Below are positions 1-19,421 of a stretch of 19,421 nucleotides of DNA, piece by piece. Made by a program: the position numbers and the translations under genes. Numbering within the stretch: the first letter of the stretch is position 1; every line of letters begins with the position of its first letter. The stretch spans positions 1 to 19,421 of the forward strand of contig CAHJXG010000488.1 of the NCBI GenBank assembly GCA_903644035.1. The letters are read 5' to 3'. The notes under the pieces are model-generated. The model was not told where the DNA came from. It made no database searches and worked only from the letters and a program-made list of their open reading frames with translations. This DNA comes from Rhodospirillales bacterium (GTDB lineage Bacteria > Pseudomonadota > Alphaproteobacteria > Acetobacterales > Acetobacteraceae).

Positions 1-10
1 CTTCCGATCT
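1..10. other. Illumina adapter remnant at contig edge
   Basis: The window opens with CTTCCGATCT, which is identical to the last ten bases of the standard Illumina TruSeq adapter (ending GCTCTTCCGATCT). A ten-base match starting exactly at base 1 is very unlikely by chance. The helicase frame stays open through it, but the first codons read from it are probably not biological. The left end is therefore best treated as an untrimmed read end, not a natural DNA end. Confidence 0.85.
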
Positions 11-11
11 G

Positions 12-1340
12 ACGCTCCGGGCATTCGAGGCCCTGCGCGAAGACGCCGCACGGTTGTCATCACAGCTGGAGCAGGGCGAGGGAGCGTTGGGGGACGCGGT
101 GCCTGGACCCGGGTTCTGGGCCTTGCCCGATGATGAGTTGCAGCGCGCGGCACCCTGGAACGCCGGTGAGTTCCGCGCCGCCCGAGACGAGCTGTTCGCT
201 GCCGTCATACGCCTGCATCGGGCCTTCGTGGTTGTCGCGGCCCGCACCGTGAAGACGTCGCTGAACACGATTGTCCGGGCGGCGCAGGGTGGCTCCGGCG
301 TCGTCAAGCCGAGCGCGACGGATTGGGGAGTGTTCTTCCTGGTGGTGCCCGTGGTCTCGACGACCTTCGCTTCGATAGGGCGCATGTTCCAGGGGTTCGG
401 TGCCGGGGAGATCGGCTGGCTGCTGATCGACGAGGCGGGGCAGGCGCCGCCGCAGGCCGCGGTGGGTGCGATCTGGCGGGCGAAGCGCGCGGTGGTCATT
501 GGCGACCCGCTGCAAATCGAGCCGGTGGTGACCACACCCAAGCGCACGACACGACTGATCTTCGAGAGCAACGCCGCCGATCCAGTGGCCTGGGCGGCGC
601 CAAAGCAGTCAGCGCAGTCGCTGGCGGATCGTGCCAACCCGGTCCAGGGCCGCTTCCAGGTGCTGGACGGGGAAACTGGCGGGACCGAGCGGATCACCGG
701 CATGCCGCTTCTGGTGCACCGGCGGTGCGAGGAACCGATGTTCGGCATCGCCAATCGCATTGCCTATGACGGACGGATGGTGTTTGCCACATCCGAAGGG
801 GTGTCCCGGATCAAGGACATCCTGGGGTCCTCGGCCTGGATTGACGTGGATGCGCCTTCCACCGACAAGTGGGTGGAGGACGAGGGACGTCTGATCGCCC
901 AAGCGATCGCTAAGCTGTGCCGCGGCTTGCCGACGCCGCCGGACCTCTATGTCATCTGCCCGTTCAAGGCGCCCGCGGCGCGGTTGAAGGCGTTGCTGCT
1001 GAAGGCTCCGGGCGTGCTTCCCGGCCTCAGCAGGGACAAACGGGAGGAATGGATCGAAAAGCGGGTCGGGACCGTGCACACCTTCCAAGGCAAGGAGGCG
1101 GAAGCGGTCATCCTGATGCTTGGGGCGGGGCGGGGTGCCAAGGAAGGCTCGCGCATCTGGGCTGGCGGAACACCGAACCTCCTCAACGTCGCTGCTACCC
1201 GGGCCAAGCGGGTTCTCTACTTGGTGGGCAACCGCCGGGAGTGGCAGGGAGTGGGAGTGTTCACCGAGGCGGCACGCACGTTGCGGCACCGCTCCGGACG
1301 GGAGTGGCTGGTCGCGGAGCCTGCGGCGGTTACTTCTTAG
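12..1340 (+). CDS. SF1 (Upf1/DNA2-like) helicase, C-terminal part, 5' truncated
   Basis: The frame is open from the contig edge, so the true start lies outside; a TTG at 54 is not needed as a start. Visible helicase motifs are motif II LLIDEAGQAPP (aspartate codon near 429), motif III VVIGDPLQIEPV, motif V VHTFQGKEAEAVIL (near 1075) and motif VI NVAATRAKR (near 1186). These are typical of AAA_11/AAA_12 SF1B helicases that translocate on nucleic acid using ATP. No Walker A (motif I) is present in the visible part, as expected if the N-terminal half is missing off the contig. The gene converges on the four-gene operon, whose third gene carries a second, clearly different SF1 helicase. It could belong to another defence or repair module. 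The family call is firm; the specific function is unknown. Confidence 0.85.
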   Translation, partial: TLRAFEALREDAARLSSQLEQGEGALGDAVPGPGFWALPDDELQRAAPWNAGEFRAARDELFAAVIRLHRAFVVVAARTVKTSLNTIVRAAQGGSGVVKPSATDWGVFFLVVPVVSTTFASIGRMFQGFGAGEIGWLLIDEAGQAPPQAAVGAIWRAKRAVVIGDPLQIEPVVTTPKRTTRLIFESNAADPVAWAAPKQSAQSLADRANPVQGRFQVLDGETGGTERITGMPLLVHRRCEEPMFGIANRIAYDGRMVFATSEGVSRIKDILGSSAWIDVDAPSTDKWVEDEGRLIAQAIAKLCRGLPTPPDLYVICPFKAPAARLKALLLKAPGVLPGLSRDKREEWIEKRVGTVHTFQGKEAEAVILMLGAGRGAKEGSRIWAGGTPNLLNVAATRAKRVLYLVGNRREWQGVGVFTEAARTLRHRSGREWLVAEPAAVTS

Positions 1341-1846: not shown

Positions 1847-2104
1847 ATGCGCGCCATCCAGCTACTGGCAACCATGCTCACCATTGCCCTCGCGCTACCC
1901 CCTACCGTGAGAGCACAAGACAACCCAGAGAGGCAGCTTACTGGCGACGCGTCCCGAGAGTGGGTCTTCAAGCGCGTCGTGCGGTCGATGGGTCCAGGGG
2001 ACGCCTGCACCTCTGGCCTGACCTACACGTTCGAGCAGGCCATTCGCGTCACAGCCTGGAAGTTCGGGCGATTGGTGCCCTCGCGCGAACGGCTTCCTCA
2101 ATAG
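1847..2104 (+). CDS. Small secreted protein, probably C-terminally truncated
   Basis: This 85-aa product begins with a classical Sec signal peptide: MRAI, then a hydrophobic stretch (LLATMLTIALAL), then a likely cleavage site after VRA before QDN. The ATG at 1847 is chosen because GGAGGG (1837-1842) sits 4 nt upstream; an earlier start at 1835 would run through this site. The mature part contains REWVFKRVVRSMGPGDACTSG and a TYTF segment with a single cysteine. The last 56 nt overlap the 3' end of the convergent coiled-coil gene, and the short tail after GRLV looks cut off, suggesting that the original C-terminus was replaced when the neighbouring operon arrived. I do not know a function. The signal peptide is clear; the truncation is inferred. 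Confidence 0.6.
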   Translation: MRAIQLLATMLTIALALPPTVRAQDNPERQLTGDASREWVFKRVVRSMGPGDACTSGLTYTFEQAIRVTAWKFGRLVPSRERLPQ

Positions 2105-3416
2105 CCGGGGCGGGCATGCTGACGGTCTTCACCGGTTGCACTCCCGCCTCAAGCGCCCTCTCCAATATGATCTCACTCCCGCTTGCTGACAGCGCAGCTC
2201 TCAGACGGTCGAAATCGGAACACCAAACGGTCTCCTGCTCAGCGTCACGCCTTGCATTTCGGTGTGCGCTTGGCTGGTCAGAACCGACCAGCCGCACCTG
2301 CATTCTGGCTGCGTCCACGGGGGCCCCGAGTTCGACACCGTAGTCGCTTGTGCCTGGCCGTCGAACGACAACACGTCCCTCTCGGATCCAGGCTGTCTCC
2401 ATCTGGGCGCCAATCTCGTAGCCAAGGGCAGACAGACCGCTGAGGATTACGCGCCTCCGCTCGGCGGCGGCGAGTGCTTGGATTTCCGACGCGGTCAGAG
2501 CCTCAGCCTCAGCCTCCAGTCTGACCACGACATCTTCCAAGGGCCTTTCCCAAACCCCTTGGACGCGGTCGCGGAGTGCGACGCCTTCCTTGGATGTCGA
2601 CTGGCTCAAAGTTGCAACAACCTGACCAAGCCGCCGCCGGAGATCCTCTTGCGCCCGAAGCTTGGTGACGTGAGCCGAAAGGTCGAGCAACAAAGAGTCC
2701 GTGAGAAGCGAACGCCGGGATGCGTCCTGCTGCCCGCCGATCTCTGCCGCTCGTTTCTCAAAAGCCGTGGCGGCTTCCACCTCCAGCGTGGAGATGTCCG
2801 CCAGGAGCCGGTCCAACCGCTCCTGAACCGGATTGGGCGGCGCCGGTCGGGACGCGAGCCAATCACTCACCGTCTGCGCTTGCATGCCCTGTTTCAGCCG
2901 ACCAGCCAGTGCTTCGATCTCAGGATTGTGGGTCTCTTGGGCGAGCGATGCCAACTGCCGGGCCGCCGCGGCGAGTTCACGCTCGACCACAGCCGTCTCG
3001 CCGCCGACAGGCCGCCTGTGAGACGCGTCCTGTAGAGCGATCGGGACCGCGAGACCGGCGCCTTCCATAGCTGCGACAACGCTGCGAACGGCGTTGGTCA
3101 GCTGCCTTTGCCGCGCGCGAGCGACCGCGGCGGTCTCCGCCGCGCGCTCTCGAAGGCGGTCGGTTTCCGCGCGCAGGAACATCACCTCCTCTGGCGCCTG
3201 CTTCTGCAAGTCAAGCGCGCGGTTTGCCGCAAACAGACCCGAAAGCCGACGATGGCGATCCTCCAGCGATCTCTCGAGGGAGTCGTCGAACATGCCAAGC
3301 CGTCGAGCCGTGCGCCGTAGGTCTTCGGCGGCCGCCTCCACAGCCGCCAAATGACGTCGGCAAATGGCCTCGATCTCCTGCCGAGTGACGATCCGTACGA
3401 CCTTGGGACCGCTCAT
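2049..3416 (-). CDS. Coiled-coil protein, last gene of the four-gene operon
   Basis: This 455-aa protein of unknown function starts with MSGPKVVRIVTRQEI, an N-terminus I associate from memory with conserved hypothetical proteins. Residues of about 15-115 and 150-330 are rich in Ala, Glu, Arg and Leu in heptad-like order and should form long coiled coils. A smaller globular part follows (about 345-430), with WIREGRVVVRRPGTSDYGVE and a QETVWCSDFDRL segment. There is no signal peptide, membrane segment or catalytic motif. The ATG at 3414-3416 overlaps the TGA of the upstream 2088-aa gene as ATGA, so it is translationally coupled. A scaffold or adaptor for the large helicase-nuclease is a reasonable inference only. 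Its 3' end overlaps the secreted-protein gene on the other strand. Confidence 0.85.
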   Translation of the reverse strand: MSGPKVVRIVTRQEIEAICRRHLAAVEAAAEDLRRTARRLGMFDDSLERSLEDRHRRLSGLFAANRALDLQKQAPEEVMFLRAETDRLRERAAETAAVARARQRQLTNAVRSVVAAMEGAGLAVPIALQDASHRRPVGGETAVVERELAAAARQLASLAQETHNPEIEALAGRLKQGMQAQTVSDWLASRPAPPNPVQERLDRLLADISTLEVEAATAFEKRAAEIGGQQDASRRSLLTDSLLLDLSAHVTKLRAQEDLRRRLGQVVATLSQSTSKEGVALRDRVQGVWERPLEDVVVRLEAEAEALTASEIQALAAAERRRVILSGLSALGYEIGAQMETAWIREGRVVVRRPGTSDYGVELGAPVDAARMQVRLVGSDQPSAHRNARRDAEQETVWCSDFDRLRAALSASGSEIILERALEAGVQPVKTVSMPAPAIEEAVRARAPIARTSRL

Positions 3417-6400
3417 GCCGCCTCCCGCTGCAACGCCGACTCAATGGCTGACCGAAGACGTGCCCGCTCGTGTTGCGGACGGTGATACCAGGCATGAACC
3501 GATACCCGGTGAAGGGCGGGTACGGCCCGCCTTAGAACGGCTGCGCGCCAGATCTCACGAGCCCGGGCCCGGGTAAGCAGTTCGTGCCGCGGGGCCTCAC
3601 ATTCTATTCCGATCCCAAATAGACGGGTCACCGGGTCGACGATGGCGTAATCCATGCTGAACACGTCGCCGCTCTCGTCGGCCGACACAGGATCATAGCC
3701 GAGCTGTCGAACGAATTCGCCCACGGACTCTCTGAAACCATCTCGGTCCCATGCAGTGTCGTCAGTCGGGCCGGAGGAGCCGTCGCTTAGTTGAGCAGGG
3801 ACAAAGCGTGCGGCCTCAAGGTCGCCAGCATCCAGCTTGCCCGCATAATCGAGGTAGGCTTGCAGGTAGTCGCGAGGTCGCTCGGGGCGGCGCTTCGATT
3901 GGAGCCAATCGGAAACTTCTGAAACGGGAATGGACGTCACCAGAATCACTTTGCTACGGGCACGAGTGATAGCAACGTTCAATCGCCGCTCACCGCCCGT
4001 CTGCCCAAGCACCCCGAAACTGCGGCGGAAGGTGCCTCGCGCATCCCGGCCGAAGGTGGTTGAGAAGATGATCGCATCCCGCTCGTCTCCTTGGACGTTC
4101 TCCACGTTCTTGACGAAGAAGCCCATGTCCTCGCCATCCTGCTTGCGGTCACGCTCCCGCCGGAGAGCCGCCGCGAAGGCCGGGTCTTCCGCTGCGCGTT
4201 CCTCAAGCGCGTCCTCGATGAGGTCTGCTTGCTTGCGGTTGAATGAAACCACCCCGACGCTCGGGCATGAGGTTCCCTGAGCCGACCAAAGGTCCGCGAG
4301 GATCTCCACGACCCGTTCTGCCTCGCCGCTGTTCGTCTGCGAGACATAGGTCCCATCGACCCGGTCGACCTCGATCGGGCGCACCTGCCTTATCTCGCCG
4401 TCGGGGTGGCGAACGGGGACGCTCAGGGCGCCGCTGTAGAAAGCGGCGTTCGAGAAGCCGATGAGCTCGCGATAATTCGAGCGGTAGTGGATCTTCAAAA
4501 CGGCTTTCGGAAGCGCCCAGCGGCCGAGCTGGAGCAGGTCGGGGCAGTCCTTCACTTCCCGCCTGTTCCATGCCTCCTCGGCCGCCGCCCGCTCGCTCTC
4601 GGTCGCAGTTTCGTCGACCTCGTCAGCATCCAACGCATCGTCGTCGTCTTCGACCGCACCGGTGAAGAACGCGCTCGGCGGCATCTGCTTCTCGTCGCCA
4701 GAAACAACCACCCTGCGACCACGGAAGAGGGTGGGAACGGCATGCTCGACCGGCATCTGGGAAGCTTCGTCGTATATGACGAGATCGAAAAGACCGGCTC
4801 GGAGCGGCAGGACGCGGCTGGCCACATCGGGGATCATGAGCCAGATCGGGCGTAACTGCATCAGGCCGACGGCCTGACCTTGATCCAGGATCTCCCGTAC
4901 GGTCTTGGCTCTCGGTCCGCGCAGCATGGTCAGGGCGGTCCACGCCGCCTGTGTTCCAAGCCTCGAGCCCTCGCAACCCGCAGCCAGGACCCGCCGGTTC
5001 AGGTCGCGCAACTCGCTGTCCAGCTGAGCCAACCCGTGCACTTTGGCCTCGATCTCCTCCCGATCCGAAAGCAGTTCCGGATGGCTGCCCTCCAACCGGT
5101 TCTTCCAGGCGAGCAAAGCCTCCCTGTGGATTGTCTTGCGCACGACGCCGTCCAGATTGGACGTTGGTATCGCGTTCAGCAGGCTCTCCGACTGCCTGAG
5201 TTGGGAGAGGACTCGGACCGCGTCTTCGGAGCTCCGGCCCATCCGCATCCGGACGCGTTGGTAGGGCGCCAGGGCATGAAGCGCCTCGGCCAACGGGGCC
5301 GTAAGCCTTGCCGTCGGGGAGTTGCGCCCGATCGCTGTCTCGCACTCGGCCAACCATCCGGGCTCGATCCAGGCCGAGAGCACAGACAACGCGCCACGAC
5401 TGCGTTGGCGTGCCTCGTGCCGGGCACATGCGCCTTCGAAGGTTACTTGCAGGCCGCTGTAAGCGGCCTGGGTCGCCTGCCGCACCGTCCGCTCGGCAAG
5501 CTCCGCTGCGGGGCAGGCCAGTACCGCCGCAGACGCCTGCTCAACCATGTGCAGCGAGTTCAGCAGCTTCCTGGTGTCCTCGACCAAGACGTCGAGGGGA
5601 GAGGGATGCAATGGCGGCTGTGAGCGGAGCGCTTCGTGAACCTGTTGGAGCTTCGTTCTCAATGGACGGATCTCGTGCTCAAGCCTGAGCAGGTCCAGAA
5701 CGCCGACCAGCGATCTCTCGGGCTTCCCGAGCCTGGCAACGAAGCCGATCGCGCGGTCAACCCTTCCCCAGCGGTAGGGGTTCAACCATTGAAAAAAGTT
5801 TGGCTCCGTTGATGCATCGACGAAATCCTCGATCAGGGTCTCAAGCTCGATCAGAGAGAGTTTGGCAACGTGTTCAAAAGCAGCAGGATCGTGCCTCTTG
5901 GGATCAATACAACCCAAGGTGTTGGAAAGCTCCTCAACCTTGGAGCGGAGCTGCGAGCCAAGGCTCTCTCCGCCAGCAACGGGTCGGAACAGATCAAGCC
6001 ATGTCGCCAGCCGAGCCCGCACGTCCTCGAGCACGACGGACAGGATGGTTCCGGATCCAGCCATCCACTCCATGAGCTTCGTCGGGTCGTCAGTCTCGAA
6101 CCCAGCAGAGTCCGCCGGGGCCGAGGCGCGTGCTTGCTCGGCGACCAGGAAAGCACCGAAGTCATCGCGGAACGCGCGATCGATGTGGTCGTCAACGGCG
6201 AATGGCTTGAGCGCTGCCAGCGGGCTGCCCTCGAACCTGGACCGCAGCCAGTCCCGGGCGAGCGGACCGCAGGTCTCCTCCACGGCTGCGAGCCGGATCT
6301 CGTCGAAGCCGGACAGCAGAGTCCGCAGTCGTGGAGCGTCGATGGTCAGCCCGCTTGCCTCGACCTCGATCAGCTGGCCGACGACGTCGCGGTAGGAAAG

Positions 6401-9400
6401 CCCGCTGGGCTGGTCCCGGCTGTGGAGTGCTGCGTGGTGCCGGTCGATCTCGCCTTCAAGCGCCTCGATCCTGGCGGCGAGTGCCTGCCGTCGCCTACCG
6501 AGGTCGGCAACACGGCCGGGATCAGCCGTCCTCGCGGCTGGCACTTGCGTCCTGAGTGCGTTGACAACGGAGGTTCGATCCCGGTTGACGTCGGCCAGCA
6601 GGAAAAGCCGGTCGCCCAGTCCTTCCGCTTTCAAACGCTTCTCGACGACCTTCAATGCCGCGAGCTTCTGGCAGACGACGAGCACGGTCTCGCCGTGCCC
6701 GACAGCGTTGGCGACCATGTTGACGATGGTCTGGCTCTTACCCGTCCCGGGTGGGCCTTCGACGAGCAGGCCTGGACCGCTGCGGGAACGCAGAACGGCG
6801 TCGTCCTGCGACGGATCGCTTTCCACGGTGTTGTAGCGATCACCTTCGCTGGTGGCCGGGACCGGGCCGGGTTCACCCTGCTCGACGATACGGAGCGCTG
6901 CTTCCAGGGATGTCCCGGCGATCGGCTTGCCCTGGAGAAGTTTGATATCCTCGGCCACCGCTTGGCCGGTGAACTCCACGTGGAACAGCGCGGCAGCCGC
7001 AACCAGTTCGGGCTCGGCTGAGATGGTGGTCGCGTCGCGTCCTGGAATGCGGGCCAACACCCGGCTTTGAGGCGCGGCGAGGTGCGCGAGGACATCCATC
7101 ACGTCGGCGACACGCAGGTTATCCCGCGCCAGGAGGTCGTCCTTCGCGCGGCGCCAGCGCTCCATTGCCCCGCCGCCAACGATGGATTCGAGAGCGGGAT
7201 TCAGCCGAACTTCTTCACCTTCCGCGCGGAAAGCCAGTCGGGCCGCCCTGCCAGCGGCGTCATTGCTGAACTCAAACGCCACCGGCCAGAGCAGGACCGG
7301 AGCAATACGCGGCCGGGCAGAACCCCTGCCACGATGGCCGTCTCCCACAATGAGGAACGGGAAACCCATGTAGCGTCCGTCGATGCCCGTGTCTCTCTGG
7401 AACATACTGGCATGGCTGACCAGCCGCCGAAGTCGTGCCTCCAGGTTTGGGTTGTTCCTATAGGCGGCAGGGTCCAATGCAATGGCTGAGGGCGTTCGCG
7501 CCAGCACATGGGCGACAACCGCTTCGGGGCCGCGATGGGATGTGCCGAGTTCCGCAAGGTCAATGCGCGGCGTTGTCTTGCCGATGAGGAAGCGCACGAG
7601 AGATCCGCGGCCGATAGCGCTCGATACCCGTTTTTCGAAATGCTCGAGCAGGCTGGAGACGTATTGCTGCTTTGGCGGCTCCTGCCACCGCTCGGGTGGA
7701 ACCGCAAGCAGAACCGCGGCCCGCGGCAACAGCATCCTGCGGCGGGCCCGGAATTCATCAGCCCAGGTGTCGATGCCCTTGCTGCCGCACCGGGCAAAAT
7801 TGGCGATGCGTCCGTCAACCTCGCTGAAGATCTCGCGCCTCGGCCTGGCCAGAAGCCGCTGTGCGACCTCGGATTCTAGTGCAACTCCCGCCTGCGACGC
7901 CTCCCTGAGCGCAGCCTCCACCAACGAAGCGAGAGCGGTGAACTGGCCCAGGGAGGCGCTGACCAGGAGCACGAGGTCTTCTTCGGTGACCCTGGACTTG
8001 TCTAGGATCGAAGCCAAGCGCGCGTGGTCGGTGTCGGGGAAGAGTCGAAGCCGCGCCTCGCGTTCGGCCTCGAGATTGGCCCTCGAGGTTGTCAGCATTG
8101 CCAACCGGAAGCTCTGCTCATCGAGCTCGATCTCGTTCAGTCGAGCTCGCTCGCGGACGGCGTCGGCGCGGATGCGCAGCCGGACCAGCCACGGCTCGCG
8201 CTCCAGGCGCTCGAGATGCCTGGCGACGGCGCCGGTGACGATCTCCGAGCCTCGCTCCGGGTTCGTCAGCAGCCACGCGCCTGAGACGATCTCGCCCCCG
8301 AGCGCGAGCGGCAGGTCACGGTTGAGGACCATCATCGCCAGGGCATGCTTGGCGTCATCGGCCAACTCGGGGTCGGAGACTATGTGTCGAACCTCGGCCA
8401 CCTGGGCCGGGTTGCCGCCCCGCTCGTCGAGCCAGGTCGCCACGGCACCCCTGAGCGTCGCTTCGGTTCCCTCAGCTTGGTTCGCCGCCTCGGACGCAGC
8501 AAGGGCATACGCCTCCGGACGCCGGAACAGGCGGCCACCAAGCGAGATCGCCGGGCCACGATCTTCGGTCCTCCCGGCCGCCTCTTCGGGAGGAGGCTCG
8601 ACCAACTCGCCTTGAAGCCATGCACGAACCTGCGTCCAGGACCAGCGGGCCAGCGGATCCCTCGCGAGCAGGCCGCGCAGAAGGATCCGGGTATCCGGGT
8701 CGAGGCTGGGCGGTAGCGTCATCCCACGTGTGACGACGTGCAGCAGAAACGCCTGGTCGTTCACCCCGTCGAAGCAGGCGCCCCGTGTGGCCTGCTCGAG
8801 TGCGATCATCCCAAGCGACCACCAATCGGAGGCCGCGCTCACCGCGCCAACGACCGCTTCCGGGGCCGAATAACGGGTCAGCTGGAGTGGTGCTACCGCC
8901 TCCAGGTCAAAATCCGAGAGTCTGGCCGACCCGAAACCCACGATGACGAGGTCGAACGCCTCCGGATCCCGGATCAGGACGGTGTCGGGCCGCAGCTCCC
9001 GGTGCCGCAAGCCGATTTCCGCAAAGCTGGACAGCGCGCGGCCAATCTCGTCGACGAGGATCCGGAACCTCTCCGGAGCCGCGGCGGGGTATTCCCGCGC
9101 GGAAAGCGAGCCGCCCCGGATGTGCTCGGTCACGTCATAGGCGCGGCCGTCGAACCTGCCGGTCGCGAATAGTCGGGGAGTGTGATCGGTCGGCATGCGA
9201 CGGAGCGCGTCGTGAACTGCGGGGTCGGGTTCGGCCCCGGTGCAATACAGGGTGAGCAGGGCTGGTTCTTCGGTGTCCTCGCGCCTGGCCAGAAAGCGTT
9301 CCCAAGGTTCACCGTCCCGCCCCGGCAAGCGCTCGTGAACCGTCCAACCGTCGATCACCGTCGCAGGCAGGCAGGCATCGCTCTGGGCGGTCGGCTCGGT

Positions 9401-9679
9401 CGTGGTCGGTGGCGCCAAATCGCCGCCGCAGACCATGCAGACTTGGTCGCCCTCCTCGAGGGGATGGCCGTTCACGCAAAGGGCTGAAGCGGTCTTGGGG
9501 GCTGCTGGCGATTGATGTGGTTCGGCGGGAGCATGCGGATCCACCAACGGCTCCGTCGACAGGTCCCAGCCGCACTCAACTCCGCTGACGACGTTCTCAC
9601 AGTTGAGTTCCATGGAGGCGCGGGCAGACCCGCACCCCGGACACCATCGAACAAGCCTTGTCGACATAGCTGTGCTCAC
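3413..9679 (-). CDS. Zinc ribbon-pseudokinase-SF1 helicase-nuclease fusion, 2088 aa
   Basis: The domains in order are as follows. There are two zinc ribbons (C13, C16, C27, C36; then C68, C81, C84 with H72). A protein kinase fold spans about 108-355, with HRELRPDT at 226-233, GFG at 248-250, APE at 272-274 and SDWWSLG at 284-290. A long linker carries the COG1112/DUF4011-like region (about 760-810). The SF1 helicase has Walker A GPPGTGKSQ (975-983), motif II YDEAS (1636-1640), SGDEKQ (1660-1665), HYRS (1731), NVQGDE (1861) and NVAITRAR (1901). The C-terminal nuclease (about 1980-2085) has MDYAIVD and FGIGIECEAPRH, as in MTES_1575/Vsr-like REases. The kinase lacks the VAIK lysine and both catalytic aspartates (HRE, GFG), so it is probably a pseudokinase. 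The GTG start at 9679 gives a 4-nt overlap with the upstream gene; an ATG at 9667 is the alternative. Likely cytoplasmic and acting on nucleic acid; its role in defence is inferred. Confidence 0.92.
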   Translation of the reverse strand: MSTAMSTRLVRWCPGCGSARASMELNCENVVSGVECGWDLSTEPLVDPHAPAEPHQSPAAPKTASALCVNGHPLEEGDQVCMVCGGDLAPPTTTEPTAQSDACLPATVIDGWTVHERLPGRDGEPWERFLARREDTEEPALLTLYCTGAEPDPAVHDALRRMPTDHTPRLFATGRFDGRAYDVTEHIRGGSLSAREYPAAAPERFRILVDEIGRALSSFAEIGLRHRELRPDTVLIRDPEAFDLVIVGFGSARLSDFDLEAVAPLQLTRYSAPEAVVGAVSAASDWWSLGMIALEQATRGACFDGVNDQAFLLHVVTRGMTLPPSLDPDTRILLRGLLARDPLARWSWTQVRAWLQGELVEPPPEEAAGRTEDRGPAISLGGRLFRRPEAYALAASEAANQAEGTEATLRGAVATWLDERGGNPAQVAEVRHIVSDPELADDAKHALAMMVLNRDLPLALGGEIVSGAWLLTNPERGSEIVTGAVARHLERLEREPWLVRLRIRADAVRERARLNEIELDEQSFRLAMLTTSRANLEAEREARLRLFPDTDHARLASILDKSRVTEEDLVLLVSASLGQFTALASLVEAALREASQAGVALESEVAQRLLARPRREIFSEVDGRIANFARCGSKGIDTWADEFRARRRMLLPRAAVLLAVPPERWQEPPKQQYVSSLLEHFEKRVSSAIGRGSLVRFLIGKTTPRIDLAELGTSHRGPEAVVAHVLARTPSAIALDPAAYRNNPNLEARLRRLVSHASMFQRDTGIDGRYMGFPFLIVGDGHRGRGSARPRIAPVLLWPVAFEFSNDAAGRAARLAFRAEGEEVRLNPALESIVGGGAMERWRRAKDDLLARDNLRVADVMDVLAHLAAPQSRVLARIPGRDATTISAEPELVAAAALFHVEFTGQAVAEDIKLLQGKPIAGTSLEAALRIVEQGEPGPVPATSEGDRYNTVESDPSQDDAVLRSRSGPGLLVEGPPGTGKSQTIVNMVANAVGHGETVLVVCQKLAALKVVEKRLKAEGLGDRLFLLADVNRDRTSVVNALRTQVPAARTADPGRVADLGRRRQALAARIEALEGEIDRHHAALHSRDQPSGLSYRDVVGQLIEVEASGLTIDAPRLRTLLSGFDEIRLAAVEETCGPLARDWLRSRFEGSPLAALKPFAVDDHIDRAFRDDFGAFLVAEQARASAPADSAGFETDDPTKLMEWMAGSGTILSVVLEDVRARLATWLDLFRPVAGGESLGSQLRSKVEELSNTLGCIDPKRHDPAAFEHVAKLSLIELETLIEDFVDASTEPNFFQWLNPYRWGRVDRAIGFVARLGKPERSLVGVLDLLRLEHEIRPLRTKLQQVHEALRSQPPLHPSPLDVLVEDTRKLLNSLHMVEQASAAVLACPAAELAERTVRQATQAAYSGLQVTFEGACARHEARQRSRGALSVLSAWIEPGWLAECETAIGRNSPTARLTAPLAEALHALAPYQRVRMRMGRSSEDAVRVLSQLRQSESLLNAIPTSNLDGVVRKTIHREALLAWKNRLEGSHPELLSDREEIEAKVHGLAQLDSELRDLNRRVLAAGCEGSRLGTQAAWTALTMLRGPRAKTVREILDQGQAVGLMQLRPIWLMIPDVASRVLPLRAGLFDLVIYDEASQMPVEHAVPTLFRGRRVVVSGDEKQMPPSAFFTGAVEDDDDALDADEVDETATESERAAAEEAWNRREVKDCPDLLQLGRWALPKAVLKIHYRSNYRELIGFSNAAFYSGALSVPVRHPDGEIRQVRPIEVDRVDGTYVSQTNSGEAERVVEILADLWSAQGTSCPSVGVVSFNRKQADLIEDALEERAAEDPAFAAALRRERDRKQDGEDMGFFVKNVENVQGDERDAIIFSTTFGRDARGTFRRSFGVLGQTGGERRLNVAITRARSKVILVTSIPVSEVSDWLQSKRRPERPRDYLQAYLDYAGKLDAGDLEAARFVPAQLSDGSSGPTDDTAWDRDGFRESVGEFVRQLGYDPVSADESGDVFSMDYAIVDPVTRLFGIGIECEAPRHELLTRARAREIWRAAVLRRAVPALHRVSVHAWYHRPQHERARLRSAIESALQREAA

Positions 9680-10323
9680 ACGTCCAGCCGCCGGTCCGCA
9701 GTCACCGTGACACCATGGCCTTGGGCCTCGAGCAAGGCGGCAAGACGGTGGAAATCGCCCGGGCGCGGGATGCCTGCAAAGAAGACTTCTCCGGTCATGT
9801 CGTCCATCATCATGTCGAGCGAGCGTTGGGCGGGCATCGGCTTTTCCGTGTAGGGGCCGAGACGGTCTCTCCCGAGCGGCGTCAGGCAGACCAGCCGCTG
9901 GTTATCGCTGCCGCGCAGGGAAAGGGTCTGTGCGCTCCGCTGGTCGTACGGGTCGGCGATGACGCAGTCAATCAAACCGTCAAACGTCTTGAGCAGGCCT
10001 TTGAGATGCTCGAGAGGGTATCCCGAGTAGACGAGTATGTCCGCCGCCGTTACCGCGCGTAAGCGCGAGAGGAGCACGCGCAGGGCGTCGGCTTGGTCAA
10101 ACGGTTCGCCCCCGGAAACCGTCACGCCGTCGGCGGCTTGCAAGGCGGGCATTGCCGCTCTCACGAGGTTGTCGACGGTCGTCATCGGACCAGCCGCCCA
10201 GGTGTCCATCGACACGCAGCCTTGGCAGCGGATCGAGCAGCCCTGGAGCCAGATGGCGAGCCTCTGGCCTGGGCCGAGAGCGGTAACCGGGAAATGCATG
10301 CGGGAGATTGAGATTTCGGTCAT
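9676..10323 (-). CDS. NrdG-like radical SAM / 4Fe-4S protein
   Basis: This 215-aa protein has a CX3CX2C cluster motif, GCSIRCQGC (C29, C33, C36), which should hold a 4Fe-4S cluster that cleaves S-adenosylmethionine, and a GGEP motif (71-74, VSGGEPFDQ) for SAM binding. Its length and layout match anaerobic ribonucleotide reductase activating enzyme (NrdG) and pyruvate formate-lyase activase-like single-domain proteins. No glycyl radical enzyme is encoded nearby, so the usual partner is absent and the name nrdG is not justified. The ATG at 10321-10323 overlaps the TGA of the AAA+ gene as ATGA, and its own TGA overlaps the GTG of the 2088-aa gene. It may modify an operon partner or a small molecule; the substrate is unknown. 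The C-terminal segment (about 150-215) lies outside the core SAM fold and could contact partners. Confidence 0.88.
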   Translation of the reverse strand: MTEISISRMHFPVTALGPGQRLAIWLQGCSIRCQGCVSMDTWAAGPMTTVDNLVRAAMPALQAADGVTVSGGEPFDQADALRVLLSRLRAVTAADILVYSGYPLEHLKGLLKTFDGLIDCVIADPYDQRSAQTLSLRGSDNQRLVCLTPLGRDRLGPYTEKPMPAQRSLDMMMDDMTGEVFFAGIPRPGDFHRLAALLEAQGHGVTVTADRRLDV

Positions 10324-12191
10324 GCCGCTGACGCCGCCAAGGTGCGCACGACGTCGAGGTTCGTGACGGTTCCCGCCTCTCTGCTGAGGCCAGTGATGGT
10401 CAGCTGCTCGCCGGGCTTGGGTCCGACGTCGAACAGCGCCCGGGCGAGCGGGTTGATGAGGTGGACCTCAACCTTGTTGCGAATTCCTCGGCCGCCGTTC
10501 GACAGATCGGCGAGGCAGAGTTCCCTGAGTTCGTCGCGTGCGGCGCTTGCCATCCGCACCGAGGCGCCTGGGACAGGCACGGCCTCCCTGAGAACGTCGC
10601 CGACCATCAGGTCGAAGATCTCGGCGGCGACCGCTGGCCGGATGAAGTCGAACACGAGCACGTTCTCGCCGATGCGGTTCAGGATCTCGGGGCGGTTGAG
10701 CACGAGCTTGAAGTGCTGGTCGATCTCAGCGCGCACCTTCGCCTGAACGTCCTCAAAGGCATCGCCAGGGAACACGTGCTGCGTGCGTGAGCCGTCCGGG
10801 CGCATCTGGTAGATGCCGAGGTTCGAGGTGAACACGATGAACGCTTCCGAGAAGTAGACGCGGTCGCCGCGGCCGGAGGTCAGAACCCCGTCGTCGAGGA
10901 TCTGGAGGAACTTGTCGAGGATCCGTGGGTGGGCTTTTTCGATCTCGTCGAACAGCACCACACTGAAGGGCTTCTCGCGGATCGCGTTGGTCAGTTCGCC
11001 GCCCACGTCATAGCCGATATAGCCCGGTGGGGCGCCGACGAGGCGCTGGTCCGAATGCTCGGCCGAGAACTCGGACATATCGAACCGGATGTAGGCGCTC
11101 TCGTCCCCGAACAGCAGGCTTGTGAGCGCCTTGGCGAGTTCGGTCTTCCCGACACCGGTTGGACCGGCCAGGAAGGCGACGCCGCGCGGCCGGTTGCCCC
11201 TGCGGGGCGCACCCACTCCGGTGACTGCCCGCTTAACGACGTCCATGATGTGGGTGACTGCCCCGTCCTGGCCGCGGACACGCTGCCGGATGAACTCTGT
11301 GCCTCCCCGGATCTTCTCGCGGTCGATGGTAGCCCAGGGGTCTTCGGTGACGCCGACCTTGTAACGGCGGACTGCGTCGCCGATGGCCGTGAAGGAGAGC
11401 TTCTCAACGCGTCCCAACTGTGAGATCGCGAGGAGATCGAGCAGGAGCAAGCCTTCAGTCTGTTCGACAAAGGTGTCGAGCGCCTCCTTGGCCGGGCCCG
11501 CACCTGCGTCGCGGTAACCTCCAAGGCTGCGCAGCAGCGACGGCGCCAACGCACGCCGGGCGCGACTGTCTGGCTTGCCGACCGGGATGTGGCGCACCCG
11601 GGGATTATCGATGAGGAACCAGTCCGGCAGGTCGCCCTCCTTGTCCACGATCCAAATGACCGGGTTCATGAACGGGCGTGGTGGTGTCCCGTGTGGCCGT
11701 GCCTTCGCCTGGTGGGCGAGTACGAGTGCGCGTGTGAACGCCACATGTTCTTGCGAGGTGAGAGCATCGGAACGGGCGAGCAGCCTCGACGCAAAGTCCG
11801 CAACCAGGGCCAACGGCGGCCCGGAGGAGCTGACGAGGCGCTCCAAGGTTGTCGTGAACAGCTCAAGGCTAGCGGGAGCGTGTCCGTTGGCACTCGGGGT
11901 CAGCCCGAGCCCAATCAGCGTCTCGGCCGCGGAGGCGGGTTGCTCACCCGGCAGCGCGACGGCGCGGAAACCGTTCAGCGGGTCGTAGCCGATCACGCCG
12001 GAGTAGCCGACTTGGCGCAGTTCGGCGGCGATGACGTTGACGAGCGGCTGAACCGTGACATGTCCCGGATCGGTCTCGGTCAGCTGATGGTCGCGGACAT
12101 TCCCGGTCAGCACGAACTGTGATTTGAGCGGCAAGAAACGGAGTAGGTCCCGCAGCCAACGCGGCTTCTCCGCCGCTTGGCTATACTCCAT
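10320..12191 (-). CDS. ClpB/ClpA-type AAA+ ATPase, first gene of the operon
   Basis: This 623-aa protein ends in a complete ClpA/B D2-type AAA+ module. It has Walker A GPTGVGKT (343-350), pore loop GAPPGYIGY (Tyr391), Walker B VVLFDEIEKAH (411-421), sensor 1 FTSN (454-457), an arginine finger in RPEILNRIG (Arg506) and sensor 2 GGRGIR (566-571). The first 280 residues look like a decayed first ATPase domain: a QFVLTGNVRD segment stands where a P-loop would be, and PVIWIVDKEGDLPDW resembles a Walker B strand, but no GKT/S is present. I see no ClpP-docking IGF/IGL loop, so protein remodelling without proteolysis is more likely than a protease role. The protein is likely a cytoplasmic hexamer. 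The ATG at 12191 has only a weak upstream GGG. Its stop overlaps the radical SAM start by 4 nt. Confidence 0.9.
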   Translation of the reverse strand: MEYSQAAEKPRWLRDLLRFLPLKSQFVLTGNVRDHQLTETDPGHVTVQPLVNVIAAELRQVGYSGVIGYDPLNGFRAVALPGEQPASAAETLIGLGLTPSANGHAPASLELFTTTLERLVSSSGPPLALVADFASRLLARSDALTSQEHVAFTRALVLAHQAKARPHGTPPRPFMNPVIWIVDKEGDLPDWFLIDNPRVRHIPVGKPDSRARRALAPSLLRSLGGYRDAGAGPAKEALDTFVEQTEGLLLLDLLAISQLGRVEKLSFTAIGDAVRRYKVGVTEDPWATIDREKIRGGTEFIRQRVRGQDGAVTHIMDVVKRAVTGVGAPRRGNRPRGVAFLAGPTGVGKTELAKALTSLLFGDESAYIRFDMSEFSAEHSDQRLVGAPPGYIGYDVGGELTNAIREKPFSVVLFDEIEKAHPRILDKFLQILDDGVLTSGRGDRVYFSEAFIVFTSNLGIYQMRPDGSRTQHVFPGDAFEDVQAKVRAEIDQHFKLVLNRPEILNRIGENVLVFDFIRPAVAAEIFDLMVGDVLREAVPVPGASVRMASAARDELRELCLADLSNGGRGIRNKVEVHLINPLARALFDVGPKPGEQLTITGLSREAGTVTNLDVVRTLAASAA

Positions 12192-13307: not shown

Positions 13308-13439
13308 ACTCGTTCGGCGCTTGCCCTGCCATTCAATTTTCTTCGGCGATTGAGGCAGCGGGCTGAAGAACAGAGGTGGAATCGGGCGCGGCGAGCGCAC
13401 ACATGGCGGTTTTCTGATGGGATTGGGGACTCGGATCGA

Positions 13440-14879
13440 GTGCTGGATCGACCTCTGCGTGGGACCGAGGCTACAGCTAACCGGGCGCAGCACGCTGTCT
13501 GCGGCGAGATCCGGGAGGCGCATCAGTTGCATCCTCTTGGCTACGACGACGATGACGATTGGGTTTGCCCGGACGAGAACTGCCGAGCCCGGATGACGCC
13601 CTGCGCCTGGAAGCCGCTGAACCGAGACGGGGAGCCCTACCAGCGATCGCCCTACTTCCGGGCTGAACCGGCTCACTCTCCGCTCTGCGTGGCCTGGCGT
13701 TCGGATGCTCGCGAGAGGTCTACGCCGGAAAACACCGTAGGCTACGCTGCTGACTACCCTAACCGTGTCGTCCTGTTTCCTACGCCGCCGCGAGATAGCC
13801 ACTCGGCTGCCAAGAACGAAGCCGACGTGTCGGAGCCATGCGGCATTGCCGTTCGAGAAACGCATGCAAGCTGGACGCGGAGCATTCGGAAGGCATGCGA
13901 GTTCTACGTAGCCTCGGCTGAGCACCACCAGCGATCTCTAAGGGTGGACGGTTGCGGGGGTGCGACCTACGGCGAGTGTTTCGTCCGCCTTGGTACTGGC
14001 GACCGCAAGATCGTCGGCCGTCAGTGGATCTTCTACGATCAGATCTGGCTCAAGGACTGGATCGACTTGGATGTCGAGCCGCTGGTTCTCCCGTTGATGA
14101 GCACGGTGTCGGGTGTCCATCGAACTCTGACTATCGACACCATGCGTTGGCCCGAGAGCCACCGGCGCGATCTCCGGCGGTGCTTCAGGGCAGTCCTTCG
14201 GGAAGGCAAGGCAGCATACCGCCAGGGCAAGAAGGATCACCGTCCGTGGATCTTCTTTGTCGGCCGTGAGGAGCTTTACGATCAGACCAAATTCCAAGCC
14301 GACCTTCAGCCTGGCGTGGAGGTGCTGGTTTGCACCATGCCCAGGCAGCAAAGGGCATTCCGGCCGTCCGCGCGCTTCGTGCAAGCAACGAGGCATTTCT
14401 ACGGCCAGGAGGCCGCGACAGAAGCGCCGCCTTCCAGAACCGAGTTTATCGGCGCGCCGGTAGAGGATGACGCGGCAGCGTCCGCAGCGCCAACGACGGG
14501 CGACAACTCCGGGCAGGAAATCGGAACGGGCTCGCCATTCCATGATCGCGGGGACTTTGAGCCAGCAGACGAGCAGCCGGAGGCCAAGCTTCGTCCATTT
14601 GCAGAGCCCAGTAGGGAGGATGCAGAGGAGCGACTGCTCGAACTCCCAGAGTCGGACACGGGGATCGATGCCGGTTCGACGCATGCTCGCCACGAATGCG
14701 AGGAGGCCAAGAAGCCGGAGCATGTGGAAATCGAGCCAACCGGCAATGATTATAGTGATCCGGATCACGGAGCCCAGGATAGTGAGGGCAGTGCCCTTGC
14801 GGCGCCCTGGAACGAGGCGGCGACGGTGTGGGTTCGAATGCGAAAGACCGCATTGAGGCTCGTGCGTTGGAAGAAGTGA
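13440..14879 (+). CDS. Protein of unknown function with CoiA-like zinc motif and acidic tail
   Basis: This is a product of about 479 aa. Near the N-terminus it reads DDDDDWVCPDENC, then SPYFRAEPAHSPLC, giving a CX4C...YFRX4HX3C pattern. That resembles the zinc-binding motif at the start of CoiA-like and some nuclease-linked proteins, where Cys, His and Cys bind metal. The middle part (RQWIFYDQIWLKDWID, PWIFFVGREELYDQTKF) looks globular but has no catalytic motif I can name. The last 130 residues are rich in Glu, Asp, Pro and Ala and probably disordered. The GTG at 13440 is chosen because codon bias is poor before it and GGGGA lies about 10 nt upstream; a TTG at 13350 would add 30 residues. 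It follows the GreA-like gene by about 130 nt on the same strand. Hypothetical, but clearly coding. Confidence 0.6.
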   Translation: MLDRPLRGTEATANRAQHAVCGEIREAHQLHPLGYDDDDDWVCPDENCRARMTPCAWKPLNRDGEPYQRSPYFRAEPAHSPLCVAWRSDARERSTPENTVGYAADYPNRVVLFPTPPRDSHSAAKNEADVSEPCGIAVRETHASWTRSIRKACEFYVASAEHHQRSLRVDGCGGATYGECFVRLGTGDRKIVGRQWIFYDQIWLKDWIDLDVEPLVLPLMSTVSGVHRTLTIDTMRWPESHRRDLRRCFRAVLREGKAAYRQGKKDHRPWIFFVGREELYDQTKFQADLQPGVEVLVCTMPRQQRAFRPSARFVQATRHFYGQEAATEAPPSRTEFIGAPVEDDAAASAAPTTGDNSGQEIGTGSPFHDRGDFEPADEQPEAKLRPFAEPSREDAEERLLELPESDTGIDAGSTHARHECEEAKKPEHVEIEPTGNDYSDPDHGAQDSEGSALAAPWNEAATVWVRMRKTALRLVRWKK

Positions 14880-17417: not shown

Positions 17418-18229
17418 ATGAGTGACCAGTCCCGGCCATATGCAATCCACAGCGACAGCGAGTGCGACCGCCTTGAGCGCCAGGCGGCACTGGCAGGGTT
17501 GGAGGAGCACCTCGCCTACGTTCCGCTGACGCCGCAGCTCAAGCCCATCCTCGATGCCGGGTGCGGCTCCAGGTCGATGGCGCGCCACTCGCGGCGAGGT
17601 GCCCTCACGCGCGAGTTGTCGGCGTGGATGTCCGGCCGGACTACGTGGCTTACGCACAGGAGCGCGCCCAATGCGAGGGCTTGGGCAATCTCAGCTTCGA
17701 GCCGGGCGACATCTTCTGCCTGCCGTTCCCAGATGGCTCCTTCGACCTTGTCTGGTCCAAGTACCTCCTGCAACGGGTCGAGGACCCGGCTGCTGCCATG
17801 GCGGAGATGCGGCGCGTCGCGGCGCCGGACGGGCGGGTGGTCTGCTGCAACTTCGACGGCTTCGCGGTCACGCACTGGCCCGAGGACCCGGCGCTGCAAA
17901 CGAGCGCTGACCGCGTGTTCCCGGCCCTCGTGGACCCGTTCATCGGGCGCAAGATGGCCTCCTTTATGGGGCAGGCCGGGCTGGCCGACATCGCGGTCCA
18001 CTTCGAGGCCGACCGGCTGTTCGCTGTCGTGGGCCAGATCGATCCGGAGCGGCGGCGCAATTGGGTCGACCAGTTCACGGCAGCGCGACCCTACATGGCC
18101 CGCATCCTCGGCGGGGAGCCACAAGCGGACGCCTTCATCGAGGCGTTCCTCGCCTACCAAGAGCGTCCCGACACCGCCAGCTACACAGCCCTCGACTTCG
18201 CTTCTGGAACCGTCCCGAAGGGCGCCTGA
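17418..18229 (+). pseudogene. Class I SAM-dependent methyltransferase with -1 frameshift
   Basis: The N-terminal part (MSDQSRPYAIHSDSE to ILDAGCGS, the SAM-binding motif I) is read from the ATG at 17418. The rest (ARCPHARVVGVDVRPDYVAYA, FEPGDIFCLPFPDGSFDLVW, RVAAPDGRVVC) is in another frame and runs to the TGA at 18227. Adding one C after the CAC at 17586-17588 would join them as MARHLAARCPHA, so a single base is missing there. The order of motifs (GxGxG-like, acidic VGVD after strand 2, FDLVW, post-motif III) is that of the Methyltransf_11/25 family, about 270 aa if repaired. The target could be a small molecule or lipid; it is not known. The loss may be real or a base-calling error in a GC-rich run. 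It stands alone on the + strand. Confidence 0.8.
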
Positions 18230-18528: not shown

Positions 18529-19421
18529 CTACTGTCCAAGCAAGAAGCGCCGGTACATCGCACCACGCTCTGTTTGGGCCCACAGCAGAATCTCGGCCCG
18601 CCCGATGACTTCCGTATCAGGGGGGACATCACCATGGCAGCCGCCATAAGCGAAGTAGAATGCCTTGTAGGGACCATCATGAGCACTCACGGCCGCGGCG
18701 AAACCATCGTCGATCGATACGCTTCCTGAGTTTTTCTTGCATTGCGCGAAGAGGTGCAGCCCGTCCGGAACCCTGCGCCCGACGATGTCGAACGTCGGCA
18801 ACGTCATGCCGGTTGAGAGACCAGTCGGCACGAAGCCTTGCTCCAGTGTCAGGTACGCCGTGCAAAGAGACTCCCACGCGGACGCCCCAAGAAAGTCGAT
18901 CAAGCGGTCGAACGGCAAGGCGGCCAGCGTAGCCCGGAGCATTGCAGCATTCTCGCTCTCTGCAAGAAGACATACGTGTGGACGCATACCGTGGAACTCA
19001 TGGATATTTCCGTAACCTTGGGTGGCCAAAATCTGGTAAGCATCCGGCAGGTCCATGACCTTAAACACTTTACCGATCTTGATACGACGAAATTTGAATA
19101 CCTCCTTCGCGCGGCGATCGGGGTATAATTGATTCAAAGCATGGTTTTCATCCGAATACATCCCGGGTTCCAACTGTGCCAAGCCGAACTCAGCACGCTG
19201 GCGGAGAAACACCACAACCCAATCGTCGGCACCAATTGCCTCGAGTCGCCGGACAGCGCCGATGTCAGGTGATGAATTCCACCCTAGGTCTTGTTGATGG
19301 GGGTGCTCGCGCAAGATGCTCCAAGGATCGCGCGGCTGAGCGTGGCAGGCTTCCTGCCACTCGTCCGCGGACCAAGCGCCATACCAAACGCCAACCTCGC
19401 CCCTCTTCCAAGCTTCGACGG
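18529..19421 (-). CDS. Mrr-like PD-(D/E)XK nuclease, 5' truncated
   Basis: The frame is open to the contig end, so the start is missing; 296 codons are visible, beginning with VEAWKRGEVGVWYGAW. A TTG at 19314 is not needed as a start. Near the C-terminal third it reads ASAWESLCTAYLTLEQGF, then TFDIVGRRVPDGLHLFAQCKKN. This matches the Mrr-type restriction endonuclease layout: a helix with Glu (WESL), a catalytic Asp (FDIVG), then QxK (AQCKK). The upstream 150 residues (LREHPHQQDLGW, DLPDAYQILATQGYGNIHEFHG) are not recognised and may bind DNA or a partner. Parts of the gene (about 19060-19150) are less GC-rich than the operon, fitting transfer. It is followed after 33 nt by the zinc-motif fragment. 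Confidence 0.7.
   Translation of the reverse strand, partial: VEAWKRGEVGVWYGAWSADEWQEACHAQPRDPWSILREHPHQQDLGWNSSPDIGAVRRLEAIGADDWVVVFLRQRAEFGLAQLEPGMYSDENHALNQLYPDRRAKEVFKFRRIKIGKVFKVMDLPDAYQILATQGYGNIHEFHGMRPHVCLLAESENAAMLRATLAALPFDRLIDFLGASAWESLCTAYLTLEQGFVPTGLSTGMTLPTFDIVGRRVPDGLHLFAQCKKNSGSVSIDDGFAAAVSAHDGPYKAFYFAYGGCHGDVPPDTEVIGRAEILLWAQTERGAMYRRFLLGQ

Follow-up and report, generated by a model that had tools for sequence, protein, structure and literature searches.

A four-gene operon of an AAA+ protein, a radical SAM protein, a pseudokinase-helicase-nuclease and a conserved adaptor, kept across bacterial phyla and a candidate for defence

What could hold the genes for a protein unfoldase, a radical S-adenosylmethionine (SAM) protein, a kinase-like helicase-nuclease and a coiled-coil protein together in one operon? 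The question is raised by contig CAHJXG010000488.1 of a Rhodospirillales bacterium of the Acetobacteraceae (assembly GCA_903644035.1, 3.33 Mb, 73% complete), the whole of which, 19,421 nucleotides, was analysed and is called the window here. Open reading frame (ORF) analysis places the four genes on the minus strand in the order AAA+, radical SAM, pseudokinase-helicase-nuclease and coiled coil, with start codons ATG, ATG, GTG and ATG, respectively; an alignment suggests that the helicase gene may start at a downstream ATG instead. Loci that carry this combination are referred to as type I. The results indicated that the four genes form a conserved set, that three of them belong to what appears to be a wider module, and that the operon is accessory in the genera sampled, with defence against foreign DNA as a candidate function.

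Composition and conservation of the four-gene set

Domains were assigned to ten window ORFs by Pfam, NCBIfam and PADLOC (Table 1). In Pfam, the AAA+ protein matches AAA_2 (7.5e-44), the radical SAM protein matches Fer4_12 (3.4e-22) with a sub-cut-off match to Radical_SAM, and the 2088-aa protein matches a kinase (2.3e-11), DUF4011 (1e-6), AAA_11/AAA_12 (best 1.4e-20) and REase_MTES_1575 (1.5e-13). No Pfam family matched the coiled-coil protein, no NCBIfam cut-off was reached by any of the four, and a four-gene match was absent from Pfam and from PADLOC, the type of defence annotator that the initial annotation of this DNA had proposed to run. The composition and operon structure given in that annotation were borne out, as were the 4-nt overlaps that it noted at all three junctions.

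Table 1 Features of the operon in the window, by position and strand.
Feature	Position	Strand	Remark
AAA+ protein, 623 aa, Hsp100/Clp type; first ring degenerate, second ring with motifs	10320..12191	-	
AAA+ N-terminal half, D1-like fold without Walker A, consensus SGNxRD	11322..12191	-	
Radical SAM protein, minimal, 215 aa, NrdG/PflA-activase-like, own C-terminal extension	9676..10323	-	
CX3CX2C 4Fe-4S motif, radical SAM residues 29-36	10216..10239	-	three Cys and GGEP invariant, 21 rows
Zinc-ribbon/pseudokinase/DUF4011/SF1 helicase/nuclease protein, 2088 aa	3413..9679	-	
Pseudokinase domain (ALLTLY or LLTLYC, HRELRP, GFG)	8570..9343	-	
SF1 helicase, GPPGTGKSQ and DEASQ conserved	3905..6844	-	
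REase_MTES_1575 nuclease domain	3443..3736	-	
MSGPK/WC adaptor: N-terminal strand, long helices, C-terminal alpha/beta domain	2049..3416	-	model pLDDT 90.9
Adaptor N-terminal MSGPK	3402..3416	-	
Adaptor C-terminal domain, LGY and WC motifs	2121..2429	-	Cys399 at 2220-2222

A search with the radical SAM protein found 2345 relatives at E <= 0.001, 120 of which were listed, and a scan limited to a single genome for each species yielded at least 452 loci, of which the best 80 were kept (numbered L). Thirty loci were fetched with their flanks; seven of them come from the genomes that carry L002-L007 and L014 and are thus shared between the two sets. All four genes were present in the same order in 29 of the 30 fetched loci, from Alpha-, Beta- and Gammaproteobacteria and Bacteroidota. 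The 29 include G154, in which the adaptor is present; the thirtieth locus, G200, has a broken helicase and yielded no adaptor. The same order was found in eight of the best 80 loci (L002-L008 and L014), although L008 has frame breaks in the radical SAM and helicase genes and a weak adaptor match. Gene content and order are thus kept across phyla far beyond chance, which supports the earlier proposal that the four products act together.

The helicase and adaptor genes overlap by exactly 4 nt in the window and in 26 of the 29 fetched loci with all four genes; the exceptions have spacings of +16 (G589), -1 (G590) and 0 (G960). Coupling of the last two genes is strongly kept. Spacings at the AAA+/radical SAM and radical SAM/helicase junctions range from -4 to +18 in relatives where the start is clear. 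Because only the helicase/adaptor overlap is regular among relatives, the equal overlaps of the window are no proof that the products are made in fixed proportion, as had been suggested.

The four proteins and a wider module

The AAA+ protein has the two-ring Hsp100 fold of the ClpB and ClpC unfoldases, with the motifs of the second ring and the pore tyrosine present. It differs from them in that the first ring lacks Walker A, which Hsp100/ClpB proteins have in both rings, and in that the usual ClpP-docking loop was not seen in the consensus. That the protein is an Hsp100 whose first ring is dead is new here. The first-ring profile matched seven of 398 Pseudomonadota genomes, six of which also had a radical SAM match. 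A tree of 34 AAA+ proteins placed all nine type I rows in one group (100/100).

The radical SAM protein shares a minimal core with the glycyl-radical activases NrdG and PflA. It differs from them in its C-terminal extension and in falling below every NCBIfam cut-off shown, including that of the NrdG equivalog (76.8 vs 126.1), and the Pfam scan of the window ORFs revealed no reductase family. Both this protein and the second ring of the motor keep their catalytic motifs. The protein might alternatively be a sensor or electron carrier, with the 4Fe-4S cluster as a switch for oxygen, nitric oxide or iron, and no modifying enzyme; its small size, the lack of a further cluster domain in Pfam and the aerobic life of hosts such as Pseudomonas would fit that role. 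The invariance of the cluster cysteines and GGEP among the aligned proteins argues against this alternative, which we consider rather unlikely. A phage origin of the protein was also considered and rejected: a viral scan gave 22 loci of 26-37% identity, most matching only over residues 17-145 as NrdG does and none close to the subfamily, and 80% query coverage was reached in none of the 1614 phage records with a match. Among the 15 phage records listed, the annotated ones were class III reductase activators or hypothetical proteins, and the others were unannotated.

The kinase domain was aligned in 29 type I proteins, window included (G154 and G200 were left out). The stretch equivalent to VAIK lacks the lysine in all 29 and reads xLTLY in 28; the DFG position is GFG in 24 and keeps the aspartate in two; HRD is present in 27 and the loop asparagine in three. 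These counts uphold the earlier call of a pseudokinase. The window protein, with LLTLYC, GFG and HRE, is an outlier of its family at the HRD aspartate. A 2025 review (PMC12599244) names a pseudokinase family DLHK, and one sentence mentions this operon in P. aeruginosa as a fused helicase with an ATPase, a radical activating enzyme and an unannotated gene. The motifs of DLHK (AVLT, Hrdlrpas and GFG) are those of most type I rows, and the window protein shares the loss of the VAIK lysine, the change of DFG to GFG, the fused helicase and the operon composition. It differs in HRE, where DLHK keeps the HRD aspartate, and the sections of the review on the family describe no function, operon survey, defence link or wider module.

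The fourth gene had been described as a coiled coil, which proved incomplete. By its sequence conservation, its product belongs to an adaptor family, new here, that begins with MSGPK and carries a Trp-Cys (WC) pair in a C-terminal alpha/beta domain. Of 281 homologues found, 120 were listed, and 118 of these start with MSGPK; in the remaining two the motif lies at a later start. The start is likewise MSGPK in 28 of the 29 complete fetched loci, the exception being Providencia (G589) with MSSSVHR. In 29 MSGPK rows, a set picked by the motif and including the window, amino acids 1-5 are fixed while the codons vary, and selection therefore acts on the protein. W398 and C399 are invariant in 46 adaptor rows.

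Related AAA+/radical SAM loci, which the initial annotation had missed, extend beyond type I. The AAA+/radical SAM pair was found in eight phyla (Pseudomonadota, Bacteroidota, Actinomycetota, Acidobacteriota, Spirochaetota, Nitrospirota, Ignavibacteriota and Bacillota). Of 28 non-type-I loci with this pair, 22 have a kinase detected by our own profiles, 14 a zinc-ribbon/FHA gene and seven a PP2C gene. Members of these loci went into the profiles and necessarily match them; some genes are missed where a contig ends, and Pfam supports a sample of the genes. Of the 22 partner kinases, 21 have the HRD loop complete with Lys and Asn, 21 have DFG, DYG or DFS, and 20 have a beta-3 lysine as judged by eye (L026 has Arg and L041 is unreadable). 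By these motif counts the kinases of the other loci seem to be active, and that of type I seems to have decayed. The adaptors of other subtypes are dissimilar coiled coils that often start with MSGP: a same-strand MSGP-start gene lies beside 16 of the 28 non-type-I loci and beside six of the eight type I loci among the best 80, and only six other SGP starts occur among the 22078 in-frame starts of those 80 loci (an MSGPKK gene of L050 is in neither group). Because related loci share ancestry, these starts are not independent events. In 24 adaptors of this wider set, Cys follows Trp in 18, has another context in five (by eye) and was not found in L047. A Leptospiraceae locus (L037, 1039-4227) has two tandem adaptor-like genes before PP2C, AAA+, radical SAM and FHA genes.

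These results indicated that the AAA+ protein, the radical SAM protein and the adaptor make up a wider module, as far as sequence tells, mostly beside an apparently intact kinase, and that the nuclease version is one clade of it. The picture is of an AAA+/radical SAM/adaptor/phospho-switch core, one branch of which would have fused its decayed kinase to a helicase-nuclease. It is also conceivable that the helicase-nuclease is a stand-alone defence protein and that the other three form a separate co-transcribed unit for proteostasis or redox. Single-protein DUF4011 anti-phage models exist (Hhe and ProA), and the AAA+ protein, radical SAM protein and adaptor do occur elsewhere without this helicase. 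That proposal is at odds with the nearly fixed 4-nt overlap of helicase and adaptor and with the kinase profile built from the other loci, which matches the N-terminal part of the type I helicase protein; we judge it improbable.

Distribution, mobility and genomic neighbourhood

A type I radical SAM match was defined as one of over 320 bits; only the top few candidates were scored per genome, so misses are possible. Such a match occurred in four of 398 genomes sampled across the phylum, the window's own genome among the four; any match at 1e-15 occurred in 27 of them, and the non-type-I ones were below 125 bits. Among 40 relatives only the own genome was positive. In three other genera the counts were 1/8, 6/144 and 15/348 (the last a Pseudomonas genus), and in the family of Maribacter 2/249. 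Close relatives of the radical SAM protein (52-59% identity) were present on eight of 58 plasmid records with a match, seven of Rhizobium and one of Caballeronia. One plasmid, typed as conjugative, has all four genes annotated in order, and the neighbours of a plasmid copy include tcmP, DUF3644 and a DNA methylase. An empty site was also found: G633 shares the downstream flank of G604 and lacks the 13.8 kb that holds the operon there, the alignment breaking off 56 bp past the adaptor stop and resuming 3.6 kb ahead of the AAA+ gene. Four further non-carriers had only the downstream flank in common with G604. The cassette is thus accessory in the sampled genera, and the four genes appear to form one mobile unit. 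Beside the operon, the accessory segment of G604 (L180, 4061-5447) holds a RES-domain gene and a neighbour weakly similar to Xre/MbcA antitoxins. In G813 the operon adjoins tRNA-Gly, a CDP-alcohol phosphatidyltransferase gene and uvrC.

The neighbourhood had been described as a defence island. The 134 nearest flank proteins matched 85 PADLOC families at 1e-10 and 134 control proteins matched nine, counts of families in which the protein behind each match is not distinguished, and this supports a defence-gene setting. Among 25 flank families listed were LmuA, LmuB, LmuC, GajB, KwaB, AbiEi, AbiEii, HamC and RTasHel, none of which was in the control nine; the named systems in excess are Lamassu, Gabija, Kiwa, AbiE, Hachiman and DRT. 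Since several GajB rows may stem from one protein, the excess shown amounts to at most about nine proteins that match named systems, compared with matches of a generic kind in the controls. An IetA-like protein (3.9e-28) was found near the type I operon of G567 (L149, 9721-11277).

In the window itself, positions 3-1340 (+) encode the C-terminal half of a helicase that matches the MkoC profile (2.9e-35) and runs off the contig end, possibly a second defence gene; the earlier reading of a broken gene here gives way to an MkoC-like helicase cut by the contig end. Toxin-like neighbours, also proposed, had no Pfam support among the window ORFs scanned. A 509-aa ORF at 13350-14879 (+) had no Pfam match and a weak PADLOC match to PD-Lambda-4_B (9.2e-7), an ORF at 17561-18229 (+) has a methyltransferase domain (Methyltransf_31/11), and an ORF without a Pfam match at 18529-19419 (-) is cut by the contig end.

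Function and relation to described systems

The function of the operon was weighed on this evidence. Defence against phages or other foreign DNA, a reading drawn entirely from the neighbours and the mobility of the operon, has in our view about an even chance of being correct. Slightly less probable than that is one mobile system in which a regulatory core is joined to a DNA-attacking effector, likely for defence, its chemistry left aside.

Several observations weigh against these readings and the mechanism set out below. The control proteins also matched PADLOC families (mad2, mad3, DEDDh and PDC candidates). By Pfam, many flank genes are ordinary metabolic or housekeeping genes, and only one of ten hand-picked flank proteins matched PADLOC (IetA), which weakens the finding that more defence genes lie nearby than at control sites. 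The idea that MSGP is a universal mark was rejected, since 12 of the 28 non-type-I loci showed no MSGP start; some of these start with MSS, MSA or MSK, some have unplaced adaptors and two are cut by contig ends. An exposed N-terminal MSGPK tag was weakened as a candidate by the structure model, which puts residues 2-10 in a strand (predicted local distance difference test, pLDDT, 90.9); with these residues within a sheet, their conservation may be structural. Finally, the DUF4011 gene, which together with a radical SAM gene borders a defence hotspot in a 2023 study, is described in the same source as present in all P. aeruginosa isolates (PMC10250203), as would rather be expected of a core gene. 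A site shared with cDHS1 was considered separately and rejected: a short pattern gave no gene like integration host factor (IHF) in the fetched Pseudomonas stretches, one pattern match there running through a stop; these stretches may not include P. aeruginosa, and the result does not extend to the site in that species.

The fixed site of that gene in every isolate, together with the metabolic neighbours, fits a role in host maintenance, in which a stress or DNA-repair complex would process damaged DNA with the helicase-nuclease, recycle it with the motor and radical SAM protein, and have the defence genes as hitch-hiking neighbours. The genes of the P. aeruginosa operon are presumably PA2725-PA2728, and we take PA2727 to be the helicase gene. 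Changes in PA2727 arose within a patient (PMC4918941), which would fit maintenance as well. Patchy presence, the empty site, plasmid copies and the greater number of defence families nearby than at controls all speak against maintenance, and we hold it to be doubtful.

Returning to defence, we propose a mechanism in which the regulatory core of Hsp100-type AAA+ protein, radical SAM protein and MSGPK/WC adaptor is coupled to the pseudokinase-SF1 helicase-nuclease as effector. The adaptor would hold the effector and be the client of the motor. The radical SAM protein would modify the adaptor, with the N-terminal Ser-Gly-Pro or the conserved C-terminal Cys as candidate sites, and so set its state; judged from sequence, this step is possible, though we would not expect it. 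On infection the motor would pull the adaptor and thereby free or arm the helicase-nuclease on invading DNA. The switch that the dead kinase has lost would be supplied in related modules by an intact kinase, in some together with a PP2C phosphatase and an FHA protein. The full scheme, in which a radical-SAM-marked adaptor read by a half-dead Hsp100 arms a kinase-controlled effector, for immunity or stress signalling with a DNA-attacking branch, is a tentative and unlikely one.

Among described systems, the helicase protein comes closest by profile to PDC-S37, ProA and Hhe (NCBIfam and PADLOC), DUF4011 helicase-nucleases. Its scores for Hhe and ProA, 302.6 and 472.8 bits, respectively, fall short of the NCBIfam cut-offs, which are 2000 and 1500, and it differs from all three in that the best stretches lie outside the kinase part and that the models are of single proteins without partner genes. 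Mokosh (MkoA, MkoC) likewise combines a kinase with an SF1 helicase, and its type I has a PLD nuclease partner. The MkoA profile matches the window protein (1.6e-45), best in the helicase part. The operon differs from Mokosh in its REase_MTES_1575 nuclease, degenerate kinase and added AAA+, radical SAM and adaptor genes, and no PLD family was found among the window ORFs scanned; the earlier statement that it is not Mokosh therefore holds. TerY-P kinase/PP2C/vWA systems resemble the wider-module loci that have a zinc-ribbon kinase and PP2C; that module is defined by its AAA+, radical SAM and adaptor genes.

The initial annotation knew of no named system with this composition, and none was found in Pfam, NCBIfam or PADLOC; in the open-licence literature, neither a named system nor any account of the adaptor family or of the wider module was found. 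The four-gene set itself had already been mentioned, in the one sentence on P. aeruginosa (PMC12599244), and part of it in 2023 as the hotspot border (PMC10250203). No named system in the libraries searched or known to us has the AAA+/radical SAM/adaptor core; on a stricter view, the helicase-nuclease arm could be counted as a variation on DUF4011 or Mokosh-like defence. Since P. aeruginosa carries the operon, according to the passage in PMC12599244, the idea is accessible to gene deletion there. If true, it would mean that a module whose AAA+/radical SAM pair occurs in eight phyla couples radical chemistry, protein unfolding and phospho-signalling, with one branch driving a helicase-nuclease, and it would give a function to the unstudied DLHK pseudokinases.

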